DNA of 63,397 nucleotides. Source: Phormidesmis priestleyi BC1401. Its GTDB lineage: Bacteria; Cyanobacteriota; Cyanobacteriia; Leptolyngbyales; Leptolyngbyaceae. The stretch spans positions 1 to 63,397 of the forward strand of contig NZ_LXYR01000029.1 in NCBI RefSeq assembly GCF_001650195.1, given 5' to 3'. The notes under the pieces are model-generated. The model searched no databases and was not told the DNA's origin. It worked only from the letters and a program-made list of their open reading frames with translations. Below are positions 11,786 to 18,036 of the stretch, piece by piece (the first letter of the stretch is position 1; the number at the start of each line of letters is the position of its first letter). The position numbers and the translations under genes were made by a program.

Positions 11786-11959
11786 GTGTTTTCCTCGATC
11801 GGTCGTTGATTTCTCTAAGAATAATGCCAAACCTGGTTTAGAGAGCACGATCGAGAGGCTGCTGAATGAATGACTAGATAGCGTCAAACAGCTCTGTAGA
11901 AAGCTTTCTCAGATATGACCGTCGCCAACGGAACTAAGTTTCTAAGATGAATATAAACA

Positions 11960-11987
11960 TTGATTAACTTTTATAAAGATTTATGAT
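11960..11987 (+). promoter_or_regulatory. Candidate sigma-70 promoter of ocp
   Basis: TTGATT (11960-11965) and TATGAT (11982-11987) are separated by 16 bp in an AT-rich stretch about 90 bp before the ocp start, which would give a leader of about 80 nt. Proposed from sequence only. Confidence 0.35.
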
Positions 11988-12076
11988 AACTTAATCACTA
12001 GGGAACAGAAACGTAACCCACGAACATTCTGCTTTATTCTTAAGTCAGTTGAAAACTTAGTGAGGCAACCCTCCGC

Positions 12077-13036
12077 ATGGCAATTACTATTGATTCTGCC
12101 CGTGGTATTTTTCCCGGAACCCTCTCGGCTGGTGCAGTGCCAGCATTGACCGCGCGATTTAACCAACTCAGCGCTGAAGATCAGCTAGCGTGGACGTGGT
12201 TTGCCTTCTTAGAAATGGGCAAAACCGTCACCGTTGCGGCTCCAGGTGCAGCCAATATGCAGTTTGCTGAAGGAACCCTGAACCAAGTCAAGAAAATGAC
12301 CTTTGAGGAGCAAACTCAGGCTATGTGCGACTTGGCAAACAATGCAGACGCTCCGATCTGCCGCACCTATGCCACCTGGTCGCCTAACATCAAGCTAGGC
12401 TTTTGGAATCAGCTTGGAGAATGGATGGAGCAAGGTGCGGTCGCGCCCATCCCGGCTGGCTACAAGCTCTCAGCTAACGCAAACGCGGTGCTAGAAACTC
12501 TCAAATCCCTGGATCAAGGACAACAGATCACCGTCCTGCGGAACTCGGTTGTAAACATGGGCTTTGATGCAGGGAAACTCGACAGCTACACCCGAATCTC
12601 TGAGCCTGTAGTTGCGCCTAGAGAGATGTCTCAGCGCACTCAAGTTGCCATTGAAGGTCTCGACAACCCAACGGTGTTGAGCTACATGGACAACTTGAAT
12701 GCCAATGACTTTGACGAACTGATCAAGCTCTTTGTCCCGGATGGTGCATTGCAGCCTCCCTTCCAGAAACCGATCGTCGGCAAAGATGCGATCATGCGGT
12801 TCTTCCGAGAAGAATGTCAGAACCTCAGTTTGCTCCCAGAGCGCGGTGTTGCTGAACCCGCAGAAGATGGCTACACCCAGGTAAAAGTCACGGGCAAGGT
12901 TCAGACTCCGTGGTTTGGCGCGGCTGTGGGCATGAATATGGCGTGGCGTTTCTTGATCAACCCTGAAGGCAAGATCTTTTTCGTCGCCATTGACTTGTTA
13001 GCGTCTCCTAAAGAGCTTTTGAACCTGGTTCGCTAG
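12077..13036 (+). CDS. ocp: Orange carotenoid protein (OCP1 type)
   Basis: Blue-light-activated carotenoid protein that binds the phycobilisome and dissipates excess energy as heat. 319 residues with the all-helical carotenoid N-terminal domain (about 1-165; SARGIFP, LSANANAVL) and the NTF2-like C-terminal domain (about 195-317; ending ASPKELLNLVR). Conserved functional residues include the Trp in KLGFW, the linker-facing Arg in TVLRN, and the ketocarotenoid-holding Tyr and Trp of SYMDNL and MAWRF. Position 44 is Phe (WFAFLEMGK), whereas the Synechocystis protein as I remember it has Tyr44. frp lies 111 bp downstream, the arrangement of OCP1 rather than OCPX or OCP2. Confidence 0.96.
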   Translation: MAITIDSARGIFPGTLSAGAVPALTARFNQLSAEDQLAWTWFAFLEMGKTVTVAAPGAANMQFAEGTLNQVKKMTFEEQTQAMCDLANNADAPICRTYATWSPNIKLGFWNQLGEWMEQGAVAPIPAGYKLSANANAVLETLKSLDQGQQITVLRNSVVNMGFDAGKLDSYTRISEPVVAPREMSQRTQVAIEGLDNPTVLSYMDNLNANDFDELIKLFVPDGALQPPFQKPIVGKDAIMRFFREECQNLSLLPERGVAEPAEDGYTQVKVTGKVQTPWFGAAVGMNMAWRFLINPEGKIFFVAIDLLASPKELLNLVR

Positions 13037-13147
13037 GAAGCGGACGAGTCGATCGGGTGGGCGCTCTCTTAGCCAAGGGCGCTCAATCATCCTGAGCAGA
13101 CGCAACAAATTTAACCCATTAACGCGGAACGGATTTTAGATTGAATT

Positions 13148-13474
13148 ATGCAAGTGAGTGACCCTGAGTGGACTGATATTGAGAAAAACATAGCTCGAAC
13201 TGCCTTTGATAAAGCTCATAAACGAGAAGTTGAGGCGCTGCTAATACACGTTCGAGAGGAGGCAAGCACGATCGTAGAGTTGGGGAATCTCTGGCAGTTA
13301 CACGATTTTTTAAGCGCCAAACGATTTGGAATTGAGGGCAAGTACGACTACCAATATTCGGGTCTGCTTTTTGTCTTTGCGGGATTAATTAAGGAGGGTT
13401 GGCTTCATATCAACGAGCTAGAAGGGCTGGATAAAGACAAACTGTCAAAGGTCGCTGTTTTATCACGGATGTAG
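13148..13474 (+). CDS. frp: Fluorescence recovery protein (FRP)
   Basis: Small soluble dimer that binds the C-terminal domain of activated OCP and speeds its return to the orange form, detaching it from the phycobilisome. 108 residues, normal for the shorter form. The signature block runs LWQLHDFLSAKR (48-59), containing Trp49, His52, Asp53 and Arg59, which correspond to the functional Trp50/His53/Asp54/Arg60 of the Synechocystis protein. It follows ocp in the same direction, so co-transcription or a short internal promoter is likely. Confidence 0.93.
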   Translation: MQVSDPEWTDIEKNIARTAFDKAHKREVEALLIHVREEASTIVELGNLWQLHDFLSAKRFGIEGKYDYQYSGLLFVFAGLIKEGWLHINELEGLDKDKLSKVAVLSRM

Positions 13475-13608
13475 TTTGATGTGGCTCACGTTTACGGCTT
13501 GACTCTGCAACGTTATTTGGGCATCGATCGCCGAGGTGCTGCCATCCAAAACTAAGCGGGTTCTAGTGAAGAGCGTAAAATTTTAGTATCGTTGCTCAAG
13601 CAAATCTC

Positions 13609-14298
13609 ATGCGCGTCTCTCGAATCCGAGACCTTTTCATCGTGATCCTGTTGGCTAGCAGTTTCCTAAACGTCAAACCTCTGCTCGCGCTCACCTCGGC
13701 TCAATATCGTGAGCGCGGCATCCAATATCGAGATCAAGGGCAGCTTGAGGCGGCGATCGTGGCACTTCAAAAAGCGGTTGAGCTTGAGCCGACAAATATC
13801 AAGGGTCGCGTAAGTTTAGGATGGACGCTGCATCTGGCAAAGCAAGACCCGTTAGCGGCAGAAACTCTAGAACAGGCAACGTTCCTCAATCCCTTTGACA
13901 TAGCGACCTTCAACGCACTGGGAATTGTCTATTTGGTCAGCGATCGCCTAACCGATGCCGTGATGGTGCACACCTGGGCAACTTTGCTTGCTCCAGAGAA
14001 TGAGATTGCTCACTACAATCTTAGTCTGGAATTTTGGCGATTAGCTGCCTACGATTCGGCGATCGCGTCTGCAAAGTGGGCAGCCAAACTAGAGCCGAAT
14101 AATCCTCATCCTTGGGTGGCACTGGCGATCGCGCATTGGAATAACAAAGAACAATCGTTGGCTAAACAGGCTTATCAGCAGGCAATTGTTGAGGATGGCA
14201 GATATCGCGATCGCGCTTTTTTAGCTAACCTGGACGAAGCGGGATTCAGCTTGAGTCAAATTAAAGTAGCTGGGCAAGTTCTTGAAGCATTGCAGTAA
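13609..14298 (+). CDS. Exported TPR-repeat protein
   Basis: 229 residues. A cleavable signal peptide is visible at 1-29 (hydrophobic FIVILLASSFL, ending near LLALTS). The rest is four to five tetratricopeptide repeats, for example YRERGIQYRDQGQLEAAI, FNALGIVYLVSDRLTDAV and PWVALAIAHWNNKEQ. It probably scaffolds envelope or periplasmic proteins; partner unknown. Starts 134 bp after frp but no link to photoprotection can be shown. Its 3' end is only 43 bp from the first attC-like site, so it marks the edge of the foreign-looking region. Confidence 0.8.
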   Translation: MRVSRIRDLFIVILLASSFLNVKPLLALTSAQYRERGIQYRDQGQLEAAIVALQKAVELEPTNIKGRVSLGWTLHLAKQDPLAAETLEQATFLNPFDIATFNALGIVYLVSDRLTDAVMVHTWATLLAPENEIAHYNLSLEFWRLAAYDSAIASAKWAAKLEPNNPHPWVALAIAHWNNKEQSLAKQAYQQAIVEDGRYRDRAFLANLDEAGFSLSQIKVAGQVLEALQ

Positions 14299-14340: not shown

Positions 14341-14430
14341 AAACTAACGTTCATAATCACCCGACGCAGATGACCCCTGCATCATAACCGAATCGCTCTC
14401 AACGATCGGTGTGCATGGGCATTGTTATGC
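14341..14430 (-). repeat. attC-like integron recombination site (site 2)
   Basis: On the minus strand it begins GCATAAC (R'' box), continues AATGCCCAT, then L'' CACACCGA. About 45 nt later come the complementary L' TCGGGTG and finally GTTAG (R' box). L'' and L' pair over 7 bp with a single extrahelical A, the hallmark that orients attC sites. It lies just beyond the 3' end of the broken membrane-protein gene, where a cassette attC belongs. About 90 bp, within the usual range. No integrase gene is in the window. Confidence 0.6.
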
Positions 14431-14469
14431 GGTGCTGAACCGTCACTACTTTACGTCCAAGCATATCTT

Positions 14470-15126
14470 TCAATCTGGATGATGCCGAAATTTTATTCCT
14501 TTCCAAGTGAGCAGTAAGCCAAATCCACAGAACCTGAGTAGAATTATTGTCTCTTGAATGCCATCGCCTTCTCGCGTGCTCAATACTTTAGCCTTGGAAT
14601 TGCCGAGAAAAGAATTGATCTGGCTTGCGGGCTGACGAGCATTTTCAAAATACTCTGATTTGTGAAGTAAAAAGCTGGGTGAAGCATTGCGCGATCGAAG
14701 AACAACAGTATAACTATCGATGCCAATCTAGACGGATTCAGCTTTCTGGATGTCGTTTAGTTGAAAACTTGTAACTTGTTTGTTCCAAGGGAGAAATAAG
14801 GTTGATTGCTTCAATCGACATATTCCTTGCTGCTCCATTTCATGGCGAATGCATGTGAATGTCGAAACGTGAGTGGCAAAATAGCCTATTACCAGCCCCA
14901 TTGCTGTGAAGGCGATCCCAAGTACGAAAGGAGTGCGGGAAAATTGCAACATAGGGTTAAGGTAACTGTTCGCTCGCCCTGCCAAAAAGATCGAAGCCCC
15001 TGCTTTCTCGCTGAAAGATAGGGAGGAGTGTGAACGGTTATAATTTAACCAAGAGAGCTTAACTGGATAAATTACTTCCAATATTCCCTCTTTGCTGAAT
15101 TCCTTAACCGTTAACTTAAGCTGCAT
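14470..15126 (-). pseudogene. Membrane protein gene interrupted by one in-frame amber codon
   Basis: Starting at ATG 15126 (MQLKLTVKEF) the frame codes for a protein with an N-terminal soluble part, one clear membrane segment (PFVLGIAFTAMGLVIGYFA) and the CxR...CRLKQS...LNDIQKAESV block. A TAG at 14728-14730 then stops it. The same frame stays open for another 85 codons (IGIDSYTVVLRSR ... GFGLLLTWKGIKF) to a TGA at 14470, including a second hydrophobic segment. The two halves together resemble a two-TM cyanobacterial membrane family of about 220 residues. So this is a nonsense-mutated gene, or one needing amber readthrough. It sits between two attC-like sites as a cassette would. Confidence 0.75.
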
Positions 15127-15212
15127 AATGGTATAGCTCACTCGCCGCCGGAAGCGTAGCGATGAAATGAGGAGCGGAGCTGTATGCGGTCGAGTGCAAC
15201 GCCTTGTTATGT
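15121..15212 (-). repeat. attC-like integron recombination site (site 1)
   Basis: On the minus strand: ACATAAC (R''), AAGGCGTT, then L'' CACTCGACCGC. A variable stem of about 40 nt is followed by L' GCGGCGAGTG, a 6-nt spacer and ATTATGC (R'). L'' and L' pair over 10 bp with exactly one unpaired A. The R' box has ATT instead of the GTT needed for recombination, so the site may be dead. The methyltransferase stop codon lies inside R'' and the next gene starts at the R' edge, both typical of gene cassettes. It shares the ATAACAA...TGCAC framework with site 2. Confidence 0.68.
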
Positions 15213-15935
15213 GCTTCTTGAGAATTTACGACATCTATCGATTATTGGATTGTGGCATTCATAGTACCGATAAATGGAGATTGACTTAGATAGCCCAAAT
15301 ACCTTGCACTTAATTCGCTTAAAAAAGTAATGCAACACCTCCTCAATTTCCTTCGCCGTGTTTACGTGTTCATGTTTCATTAGCAGGCTGTAATCGAGTC
15401 CATGCCTTAGCTTGAACTCCAACCCAGTGGTCAATTTCCAACCTAGTGTCCATAGCAATGTACCTTCGCTTGGCACGCTTGCACGCAACACGCCATTTTC
15501 TGCCAACAAGAGTCCACTCCGCGCTATCACTTCCGGCAAGTTACAGATATGTTCAAGTGTCGCTATTGAAGTGATTCGGTCGTAGCGGCAACTGTTCGGT
15601 ACTTCAGAAATATCCGAGTAGATGTTTCTAACCTTTCCGAGAAGAGGTGAGCTTTTATAGAGGTCAGTGAAAGGCTCAATTATGTCATACGAGTGAACTG
15701 TGGATTCGTACTGAAGTTGATTAAGGGTGCCAGCGCCTAACTCCAACGTTACCTTTGCTGAATCTTGTAGGTTGGCAACATCACTTGCAACTTGCCTATG
15801 CAACCATGATTCCATCCTTTGTGCTAACGACGAAGCAGTTGTCTGACCCTCACGATTTGACTTGTAATGCGCCGAGTAGATGTCTTGGATTTCTTTTGGC
15901 AGAGGAGGTCGCGTCTTTGGAAAGTTGTCAAACAT
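15207..15935 (-). CDS. SAM-dependent class I methyltransferase, integron-cassette-like
   Basis: 242 residues from ATG 15935, chosen because AAGGAG lies 6 nt upstream; a longer frame to 15992 lacks this. SAM-binding motif I is LELGAGTLNQL near residue 66, followed by the acidic strand end IIEPF and motif TSIATLEHICNLPEV near 140, all of the Methyltransf_11/23 kind. Substrate unknown; small-molecule or lipid methylation is most usual for this architecture. The TAA stop is inside attC-like site 1, so gene and site together look like one cassette, with the broken membrane gene as the next. Codon use is less HIP1-rich than neighbouring genes. Confidence 0.82.
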   Translation of the reverse strand: MFDNFPKTRPPLPKEIQDIYSAHYKSNREGQTTASSLAQRMESWLHRQVASDVANLQDSAKVTLELGAGTLNQLQYESTVHSYDIIEPFTDLYKSSPLLGKVRNIYSDISEVPNSCRYDRITSIATLEHICNLPEVIARSGLLLAENGVLRASVPSEGTLLWTLGWKLTTGLEFKLRHGLDYSLLMKHEHVNTAKEIEEVLHYFFKRIKCKVFGLSKSISIYRYYECHNPIIDRCRKFSRST

Positions 15936-16079
15936 CGAAACTCCTTTTGTTCGGTGCATAGCTATTATTTCTGCGGCTTGGACTCTTGCCAATCATCATA
16001 ATACGCTCCACGAGGAAATTACTTTGTGTAGAGACCGGACAACTTCTTTCTTTTAAGGTTTTATACCGAGTCTTCACAG

Positions 16080-16198
16080 GATAACTCCTCCATTTCGGCA
16101 GTTATACTGAGCGATTTTCAGATTTTTTGCTTCTAGGCTAGAGAAAATCTGCTTCTCTACTGCTGATTTAGTAAGCAAAGTAGCAATTTGCTTTCTCT
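16080..16198. other. Intergenic stretch with local inverted repeats
   Basis: No gene is visible. There is a loose hairpin ATAACT...AGTTAT near 16081-16106 and a run of TTTGCTTCT/TTTGCTTTC motifs leading into the tandem repeat that follows. Confidence 0.4.
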
Positions 16199-16365
16199 TT
16201 TTGGTGTTTTCCGTAAGCAATCAGACAAATTGCTTTCCCATTTCAACCATTTGCTTTCTCATTTCAGTAGATCGCATATTCATTTTGGCGTTTTCCGCAA
16301 GCGAAAAGACAAATTGTGTTCTCAAACGGTGGTTTACTGACTCGTTTCAGTAGATCGCGCATTCA
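16199..16365. repeat. Tandem direct repeat, two copies of about 84 bp
   Basis: Copy A (16199-16282) and copy B (16283-16365) are head-to-tail. Both start TTTTGG(T/C)GTTTTCCG(T/C)AAGC, share AGACAAATTG at the same offset, and end TTTCAGTAGATCGC followed by ATTCA. Their middle parts have diverged. Extra partial units (TTTGCTTTCTC) lie just upstream. Non-coding by appearance; origin unknown. Confidence 0.7.
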
Positions 16366-16854
16366 CGTCAGCGATCGCCCTCTTACTGTAGGTTAAGTTA
16401 GGTGAAAGCGCGTTCGTGCGGCACTTGCGCCTCCCTACAGCATTCTGTCTATTACCGCTCCGCACTGCTAAGGCAGCGATCACTATCTCAGGAACAGGCA
16501 AGAGGATGAGTGGAGGGTTATGCTGGACTTCATAACATCCAAACCAATTTGTGAGGTTGGTGATCGTACTCACAACACCTTTTTGGAGAGAAGGCTTCCT
16601 TGTATCACTCTAAATTAGGTGGATCGGTCAAAACTTTCCGCATTTTTTCAAACTGAGTCTGACTGGCAGCACACAGATTTACTGAATGGGAGAAGTTCGC
16701 CCTAGCATTGCCTATGCTTTGATTGCTACACTCGATTTTTGATGCGATCGTCCCAAACGTTACAGCAGCTAGACAGCGTTTTTCTCAGCCTGAGCATCTT
16801 ACAGTTAGGAGATTCTGACTGACGATCGTCCAGCAATCAGAATGAGGAGTTTTA
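16366..16854. other. Intergenic region without a convincing gene
   Basis: About 490 bp before the acetyltransferase. A 79-codon minus frame is open here but has no family resemblance or good start. A short palindrome GTTATG...CATAAC occurs near 16518-16537. GAGGAG lies close before the acetyltransferase ATG and is its likely ribosome-binding site. Confidence 0.45.
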
Positions 16855-18036
16855 ATGCCTTCGGGTCAATTTGACTATCGAGTTCCAGCCAATGCGACTG
16901 AGGTGCAGCAGCTTGGGCAAATTTTGGCACAATGCTTCAACAGTCCGCCATCTGATGAATCGGTCTATTTAACTCGCATCGGCAGCGAGAACGTTCGCAT
17001 TCTCTGCGATCGAGAGCGGGTGATTGGAGGGTTGGGGCTGCTACAACTGGGGCAGTGGTATGGCTCGGCGTGTGTGCCCATGATCGGCATTGCAGCCGTG
17101 GGAATTGCGCCCGACTATCGAGGTAAAGGGGCAGCGATCGCCCTCATGCAAAACGTCCTGAAAGAGCTTCACGCCCAAAGAACCCCGCTTTCAGTCTTGT
17201 ATTCGGCGGCTCAGCCTCTCTACCGGAAAGCCGGATATGAACAAGCCGGAACTCTGTGCACCTGGGAGATTTCAACCAGCAGCATTGAGCTTCGAGACGA
17301 TTCACTGCCGATCGAGCCAGTCTCGCTTGACTCAAGTGAATTTGCCGCCCTCTATCAACGGCAAGCCCAGCAGATCAATGGCTATCTCGATCGCAATTCG
17401 GTGATTTGGCAAGGGCTGCTAGAATCTCAAAAAAACACGCCTCCCTATGCTTATCGCCTGGGGACGGCAGCCCAGCCACAAGGCTATATCATTCTTCGGC
17501 AGCAGGGCGAAGGCGAGCAGTCTCGGCTTGTGGTAAAAGATTGGGTGTTGCTCACTCCGGCGGCGACCCGGCGATTTTGGTCTTTTTTGGCGGCTCACCG
17601 TTCCCAAATGGAGACGATTGAGTGGCGAAGCGCTCCGATCGATGCGTTGACCCTGTTTCTATCAGAGCAAAAGAACGCCAGAATTCAATCTCTGACTCGC
17701 TGGATGCTGCGAATCGTCGATGTCCGGCACGCCCTTGAAGCCCGCAAATATCCAGCAGGCATCACGGCAGACTTGCATTTTGAGATTCAAGATCCGTTAC
17801 TGACCGCCAATCAGGGCAAGCTAATTTTGAGTGTCACCGACGGTGCTGGAACGGTCACCCCTGGAGGGCGAGGAGACTTGCAGCTTGAGGTCAGCAGTTT
17901 GGCACCGCTCTACACGGGGCTGTTTTCTCCTCACCAGTTGCAGAGGTGCGATCGCTTAACGGCAACTGACTCTGCCCTGACGATCGCCACCCAACTTTTT
18001 GCTGGGTCGCCTCCCTGGATGCCGGATGCTTTTTAG
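16855..18036 (+). CDS. Eis-like GNAT N-acetyltransferase
   Basis: 393 residues, the length of the Eis (enhanced intracellular survival) group. The N-terminal GNAT domain has the acetyl-CoA loop APDYRGKGAA near residue 88 and continues with ALMQNVLKEL; a second degenerate GNAT-like domain lies in the middle. The C-terminal part (about 290-390) resembles the SCP2-like fold, ending near the protein C-terminus as in Eis, where the terminal carboxylate takes part in catalysis. Known relatives acetylate aminoglycosides or lysines; the native substrate here is unknown. Stop overlaps the stop of the convergent gene at 18033 by 4 bp. Confidence 0.85.
   Translation: MPSGQFDYRVPANATEVQQLGQILAQCFNSPPSDESVYLTRIGSENVRILCDRERVIGGLGLLQLGQWYGSACVPMIGIAAVGIAPDYRGKGAAIALMQNVLKELHAQRTPLSVLYSAAQPLYRKAGYEQAGTLCTWEISTSSIELRDDSLPIEPVSLDSSEFAALYQRQAQQINGYLDRNSVIWQGLLESQKNTPPYAYRLGTAAQPQGYIILRQQGEGEQSRLVVKDWVLLTPAATRRFWSFLAAHRSQMETIEWRSAPIDALTLFLSEQKNARIQSLTRWMLRIVDVRHALEARKYPAGITADLHFEIQDPLLTANQGKLILSVTDGAGTVTPGGRGDLQLEVSSLAPLYTGLFSPHQLQRCDRLTATDSALTIATQLFAGSPPWMPDAF

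Follow-up and report, generated by a model that had tools for sequence, protein, structure and literature searches.

The DNA analysed here (hereafter the window) is a 63,397-nucleotide stretch of the draft genome of the cyanobacterium Phormidesmis priestleyi BC1401 (5.55 Mb, 213 contigs), in which two minus-strand ORFs lie between two plus-strand genes, one with TPR repeats (positions 13609-14298) and the other for a GNAT/SCP2 acetyltransferase (16855-18036), with an attC-like site downstream of each ORF. Both flanking genes are found in P. priestleyi ULC007 (87 and 84% amino acid identity, respectively), as is the chromosomal flank upstream of the GNAT gene (16577-16853), which holds no attC match. 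On the far side of the TPR gene, positions 11826-13574 carry the genes for the orange carotenoid protein (OCP) and its recovery protein (FRP), a stretch missing from ULC007 at the corresponding position, where about 70 bp are found.

The first minus-strand ORF (15207-15992; 261 aa from a TTG, with an in-frame ATG at 15935) matches Pfam Methyltransf_23 with 24 bits (E 3.5e-5), below the curated cut-off of 27, and from its sequence we call the gene class I methyltransferase-like and nothing more specific. An assignment as BioC was rejected (NCBIfam BioC, only 19.3 bits vs. a cut-off of 184.95). The gene was found in one of 42 genomes of the family, namely the window's own (E <= 1e-6), and matches with 29% identity occur on three plasmid records. 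The second ORF (ORF2; 14470-15126, minus strand) is an apparent pseudogene, its frame being broken by an in-frame TAG (14730-14728), and its first 137 aa have no Pfam match. The leader of the methyltransferase gene includes two imperfect copies of a ~85-bp unit (16187-16366, 73% alike), and sequence like this unit also adjoins the intI genes of genomes G034 and G033 (L050, L047).

The initial annotation had described two sites on the same strand at these positions, both in R''/L''...L'/R' order and with a common ATAACAA...TGCAC framework, and both the sequence and our covariance matches bear this out (the strand is the minus strand, and the spacing within the framework is 5 or 6 nt). As also described, the methyltransferase stop codon (TAA, 15209-15207) falls within the R'' box of site A (15125-15211), and the next gene starts at the R' edge (ATG at 15126). 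The claim of exactly one extrahelical base did not hold. Site B (14344-14429) has two unpaired bases in L'' (a G and an A), four non-standard pairs in the outer arm and partly worn L arms, together with a good R' (CGTTAG). The worn site A keeps its R'' and inner L arms, and the inner arm pairs well; its outer L' and R' are altered, the outer arm pairing poorly (three or four non-standard pairs and a gap) and R' reading ATTA instead of GTTA, with the G missing. In terms of attC anatomy (a GTTRRRY-type R', folded L''/L' arms and an extrahelical base), site B conforms, with worn arms, and site A conforms in part. Judged by their sequences, both sites and ORF2 look eroded.

To score these sites, the genome was searched for the motif ATAACAA-N6-TGCAC with up to one mismatch, which gave 32 matches vs. 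10 for the reversed pattern. A first alignment (A1) comprised 13 sites, eight of which were kept (alignment A2) for a covariance model, R1, with a stem of 17 pairs and the extrahelical G unpaired; both window sites were left out, together with L009, L023 and L025 (extra base in L''). A second model, R2, rests on 82 matches, all from outside the window, that were found in this genome and in others of the family; one place (L117) is included on both strands in alignment A4. On the minus strand, site B scored 44.8 bits with R1 (E 3.7e-11) and 54.0 bits with R2 (E 1.7e-13); for site A, R1 gave 16.0 bits (E 0.03) and R2 24.0 bits (E 2.2e-4). The covariance check proposed for the locus was thereby positive with our own models, clearly for site B and weakly for site A, which is missing from the 42 matches that R1 yields across the genome at E <= 1. 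A third attC match was found in the 63-kb window with neither R1 nor R2, both of which are free of window sequence. A cruder scan (TAACAA, TGCA and a 6-of-7 complementary arm) returned site A and one other place (4158), whereas 60 shuffles gave 0.1 on average; site B escaped it, probably due to its extra bulged base. In the R2 stem (82 rows, 81 distinct), 217 cells were changed on both sides vs. 63.6 in shuffles, and 92.1% of cells were paired vs. 25-40% when the stem was slid, these pairing counts being biased towards structure because a structure model had served to select the rows and the seed sites of R1 and R2 were picked by motif and shape. Against Rfam, the window had no match at the gathering threshold; a Dicty_Class_I_RNA hit at 14.0-16.6 kb (22.7 bits vs. 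a gathering threshold of 41.5) was taken as chance.

The two sites are 695 bp apart (site A being weak), within the 4 kb that serves as the distance limit between the attC sites of a CALIN, and 16 IntI queries gave no match in the window at E <= 1, so that an intI beside the array, as in a complete integron, is lacking. We infer the absence of attI from that of IntI, attI having no searchable signature here.

Evidence on how these cassettes came to lie where they do is independent of the R2 pairing count and comes from their junctions. Another contig of the genome, C21, holds sequence similar to the 5' leader of this methyltransferase cassette (85% over 393 aligned positions, minus strand), and the similarity begins at the GTT of a C21 attC R' box: around that GTT, window and C21 are identical at 17 of 60 positions before it and at 52 of 60 from the GTT on. 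In the other direction from this GTT, the window sequence aligns with the chromosome of ULC007 (window 16571-16853 vs. L137 8813-9105, 74.6% identical over 295 aligned positions), and this homology ends at the same GTT. Because the two matches meet there, the cassette can be said to start at 16575 and to be joined to chromosomal DNA at G^TT (16576/16575), as in an attG-type insertion, and beside this junction there is no attC match (R1, R2) and no IntI trace (16 IntI queries, E <= 1).

The left edge (14348/14347) is placed from the R' of site B and rests on attC anatomy, since the 33 bp between this R' and the homology on the TPR side (14347-14315) have no ULC007 match by BLAST. So bounded by G^TT at both ends, the insert would span 14348-16575 (2,228 bp, minus strand) and hold two cassettes: cassette 1 (15129-16575), with the 5' leader, the methyltransferase-like gene and site A, whose lower edge we place at the altered R' of site A, and cassette 2 (14348-15128), with the broken ORF and site B, whose upper edge is likewise a placement. 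The segment delimited in the initial annotation takes in the second cassette only.

Crossovers at the same motif are seen elsewhere in the genome. Contigs C28 and C50 are identical over 97 bases up to GTT and diverge thereafter (same attC, different downstream), and C50 and C118 are identical at 22 of 60 positions left of GTT and at 58 of 60 right of it (different attC, same downstream); on C12, homology to ULC007 resumes 13 bp beyond the end of the last attC. These R' crossover junctions, together with an association with IntI and with stop codons that many cassettes have at R'' or close to it, speak against the sites being an unrelated, MITE-like palindromic repeat rather than attC. Such a repeat would account for the one subfamily of sites that are alike in sequence (window site B, C11, C8 and C21), as well as for the common tail beyond R' in the window and C11 copies (the stretch 14347-14315 after site B resembles that following the C11 site), and we consider it extremely improbable.

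The close-relative comparison rests on one same-genus genome, ULC007, in which the slot between the TPR and GNAT genes is occupied by different content. This content starts at G|TTGTG like that of the window, comprises three minus-strand ORFs of 159-264 aa (8622-7828, 7946-7467 and 7446-6853), and has a worn attC (L137 6831-6747, 24.5 bits, E 2.9e-5) at its end near the TPR gene; a further attC lies at L137 9210-9127 (64.5 bits). The content of the slot thus differs between the two genomes, as expected for cassettes, and we infer that the ULC007 content consists of cassettes as well. The slot being occupied, ULC007 offers no empty site for the window insert, and the pre-insertion sequence was not seen. 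In L137 8813-10458, the GNAT upstream region of ULC007 is partly duplicated around a two-gene pair with an attC, which we take to be a UPF0175/PIN-like pair.

This duplication indicates that the region does rearrange, as would be needed if a piece of an array had been brought in by some other recombination, e.g., homologous recombination or a transposon. It is, however, at the R' crossover point, inside the shared GTT, that the right edge of the insert lies. Random breakage would seldom end there, and we find an origin by such other recombination very unlikely.

For an empty-site search beyond the window, end stretches of 15 of the genome's own loci were searched in ULC007, and 11 loci aligned. 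Both flanks lay on one ULC007 contig for the loci on C8, on C11 and at C17:82.5-86.5 kb, among which only C8 was nearly empty; for the others, one or no flank was placed in ULC007, or the flanks were on different contigs. Also on C17, a ~170-bp stretch (C17:68831-69000, L147 4832-5001) has 19 ULC007 matches, with a copy about 0.2 kb past each of two full ULC007 intI genes (C58:3342 and C38:8142) and some copies within 1.5 kb of attC sites (C69, C62). L055 and L147, the latter including this stretch, had no Rfam match.

Across the BC1401 genome, R1 gave 31 matches at E <= 4.9e-4 on 18 contigs. Several of these lie at the ends of ORFs, with the stop codon inside R'' or a short distance ahead of it; a GmrSD-like restriction gene and a further methyltransferase are among these ORFs. 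Ten cassette ORFs were compared with Pfam: seven remained without a match at E <= 0.001, and for one more there was only a weak match, below its cut-off. No intact IntI over the curated cut-off was found in the whole genome: 11 IntI-like matches were obtained at E <= 1, the best with 36.3 bits vs. a cut-off of 265, and only the curated cut-off was used for IntI, 14 control genomes also having matches at such E-values. Frames on C76 and C92 were rejected as IntI: they match positions 98-174 and 243-300 and not the stretch between, where (between 174 and 243) we assume the IntI-specific insertion should sit, and we read them as probable other tyrosine recombinases. An IntI relic does occur at C8:50293-50519 (63% over 35 residues with E 6.3e-8, and 46% over 46 residues with E 2.1e-5, both E-values applying to a 6-kb search). 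The relic is part of a 2.2-kb insert that is absent in ULC007 (about 70 bp there), and an attC on the other strand is ~1.8 kb away from it. By its sequence this insert, which has inexact edges, resembles a decayed integron. The genome-wide search thus turned out as the initial reading of the locus as a CALIN would have it, with many other attC matches and an integrase present over the cut-off nowhere. The window sites scored above background (site A weakly), and the methyltransferase turned up in no other family genome (E <= 1e-6, 42 genomes). Of the three outcomes named as speaking against that reading, i.e., background scores, no other attC in the genome and conservation of the two genes at this locus in distant relatives without such sites, none was observed.

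If instead an IntI gene were hidden in an assembly gap, the system would be active and the locus no remnant. With 213 contigs, of which C28 and C50 begin inside arrays, and with the 97-base identical copies on these two suggesting recent movement, the assembly leaves some room for this, but completeness is given as 99.99%, no IntI exceeds the cut-off, and the window sites and ORF2 are worn, which together make a hidden integrase quite unlikely.

Among the 42 genomes of the family, 29 have an IntI over the cut-off (some with internal stop codons) and every one has R1 matches at E <= 0.001, with 3 to 82 each. Integrons are therefore the rule in this family and not an oddity, and the initial remark that such a layout is not a usual expectation for a cyanobacterial chromosome finds no support here. 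In a sample of 292 genomes from the phylum, IntI was found in 15, and R1 matches in at least 64 (with up to 15 candidates scored per genome). R1 matches were present in at least 12 of the 15 genomes with IntI vs. at least 52 of the 277 others (Fisher p 1.3e-6, not corrected for kinship); the IntI genomes G073, G260 and G309 had no R1 match among the up to 15 candidates scored in each. In one single-contig genome with an unbroken IntI (G025), 23 sites matched, of which 21 are listed and 2 are not; for 16 of the 21, the nearest other listed site is over 10 kb away. Such scattering is not general, since arrays account for most listed sites of G012 and G016, several next to intI genes or relics.

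We propose, with a probability of roughly 70%, that 14348-16575 is a two-cassette CALIN placed off-target by an IntI from elsewhere into a chromosomal G^TT, and now eroding. Under this proposal, an integrase acting in trans from elsewhere in the genome would have joined two cassettes, the methyltransferase with site A and an ORF, later broken, with site B, to the chromosomal G^TT between the TPR and GNAT genes; IntI would afterwards have been lost, or at least is not found, and the attC sites and their cargo would have eroded. The cassettes are probably fixed in place, because no intact IntI was found in the genome.

The term integron remnant, as first applied to the locus, holds for attC sites without an integrase; that a local platform lost its integrase seems less likely than an off-target insertion. 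In such a local decay, the locus would once have had its own attI and intI, both then deleted, with the last cassettes remaining. Across the family, intI genes, intact or broken, are indeed common, and a unit decayed in this way seems present on C8. The window, however, holds no IntI trace (16 queries, E <= 1), and the start of cassette 1 abuts chromosomal sequence shared with ULC007 that has no attC match. We favor off-target insertion over local integrase loss for this reason, and hold the latter to be unlikely.

CALINs are defined as clusters of attC sites lacking an integron integrase, for which two sites suffice (PMC9024848), and off-target insertion, loss of intI and rearrangement are among their proposed routes (PMC8618304), the first being favored here because of the right junction. 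Like other CALINs, the locus has two same-strand attC sites, gene cassettes and no integrase nearby; it differs in that one site is badly worn and that cassette 1 starts at a readable chromosomal junction. In Cyanobacteria, intI is already known (PMC2426708) and a phylum-specific attC model has been published (PMC8352920), so that neither CALINs nor cyanobacterial integrons are new in themselves (PMC9024848, PMC8352920, PMC2426708). With the chromosomal integrons of the phylum the locus shares an attC family with common internal sequence and IntI in relatives, whereas in this genome no intact IntI was found and the sites are scattered over many contigs. The integron crossover motif is given as GNT, extendable to GTTRRRY (PMC10127599), and cassette insertion at attG or secondary sites is attributed to Loot et al. 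(2024) in citing papers (PMC12901181, PMC12444791). The window cassette is likewise joined to ordinary chromosomal DNA at G^TT, the difference being that this case is natural, cyanobacterial and seen by comparison instead of experiment.

In the literature covered, what is on record for off-target insertion of cassettes comes mainly from experiments and from plasmids (PMC10127599; Loot et al., 2024, via citations). The present locus adds one closely readable junction and a sister species whose slot contains other DNA, and across the family there are many loci at which off-target insertions in natural chromosomes could be counted. A search for literature on cyanobacterial integrons under that phrase found none, most subscription journals lying outside its range, and as far as the literature was searched, this locus, its readable chromosomal junction and the family counts are new.

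Given the family-wide picture, it is tempting to speculate, at somewhat less than even odds, that in part of this family the integron serves as a chromosome-wide distributor, whose IntI would drop single cassettes at G^TT so that much of the pool consists of lone, scattered units, and that lineages losing IntI would keep permanent acquisitions at shared slots such as that between the TPR and GNAT genes. Finally, on contig C62, the end of a housekeeping-type gene falls within the R'' of a weak attC match (L156 1877-1959, 32.4 bits). This gene, presumably pyruvate dehydrogenase E1 beta-like, thus seems to carry an attC at its stop.
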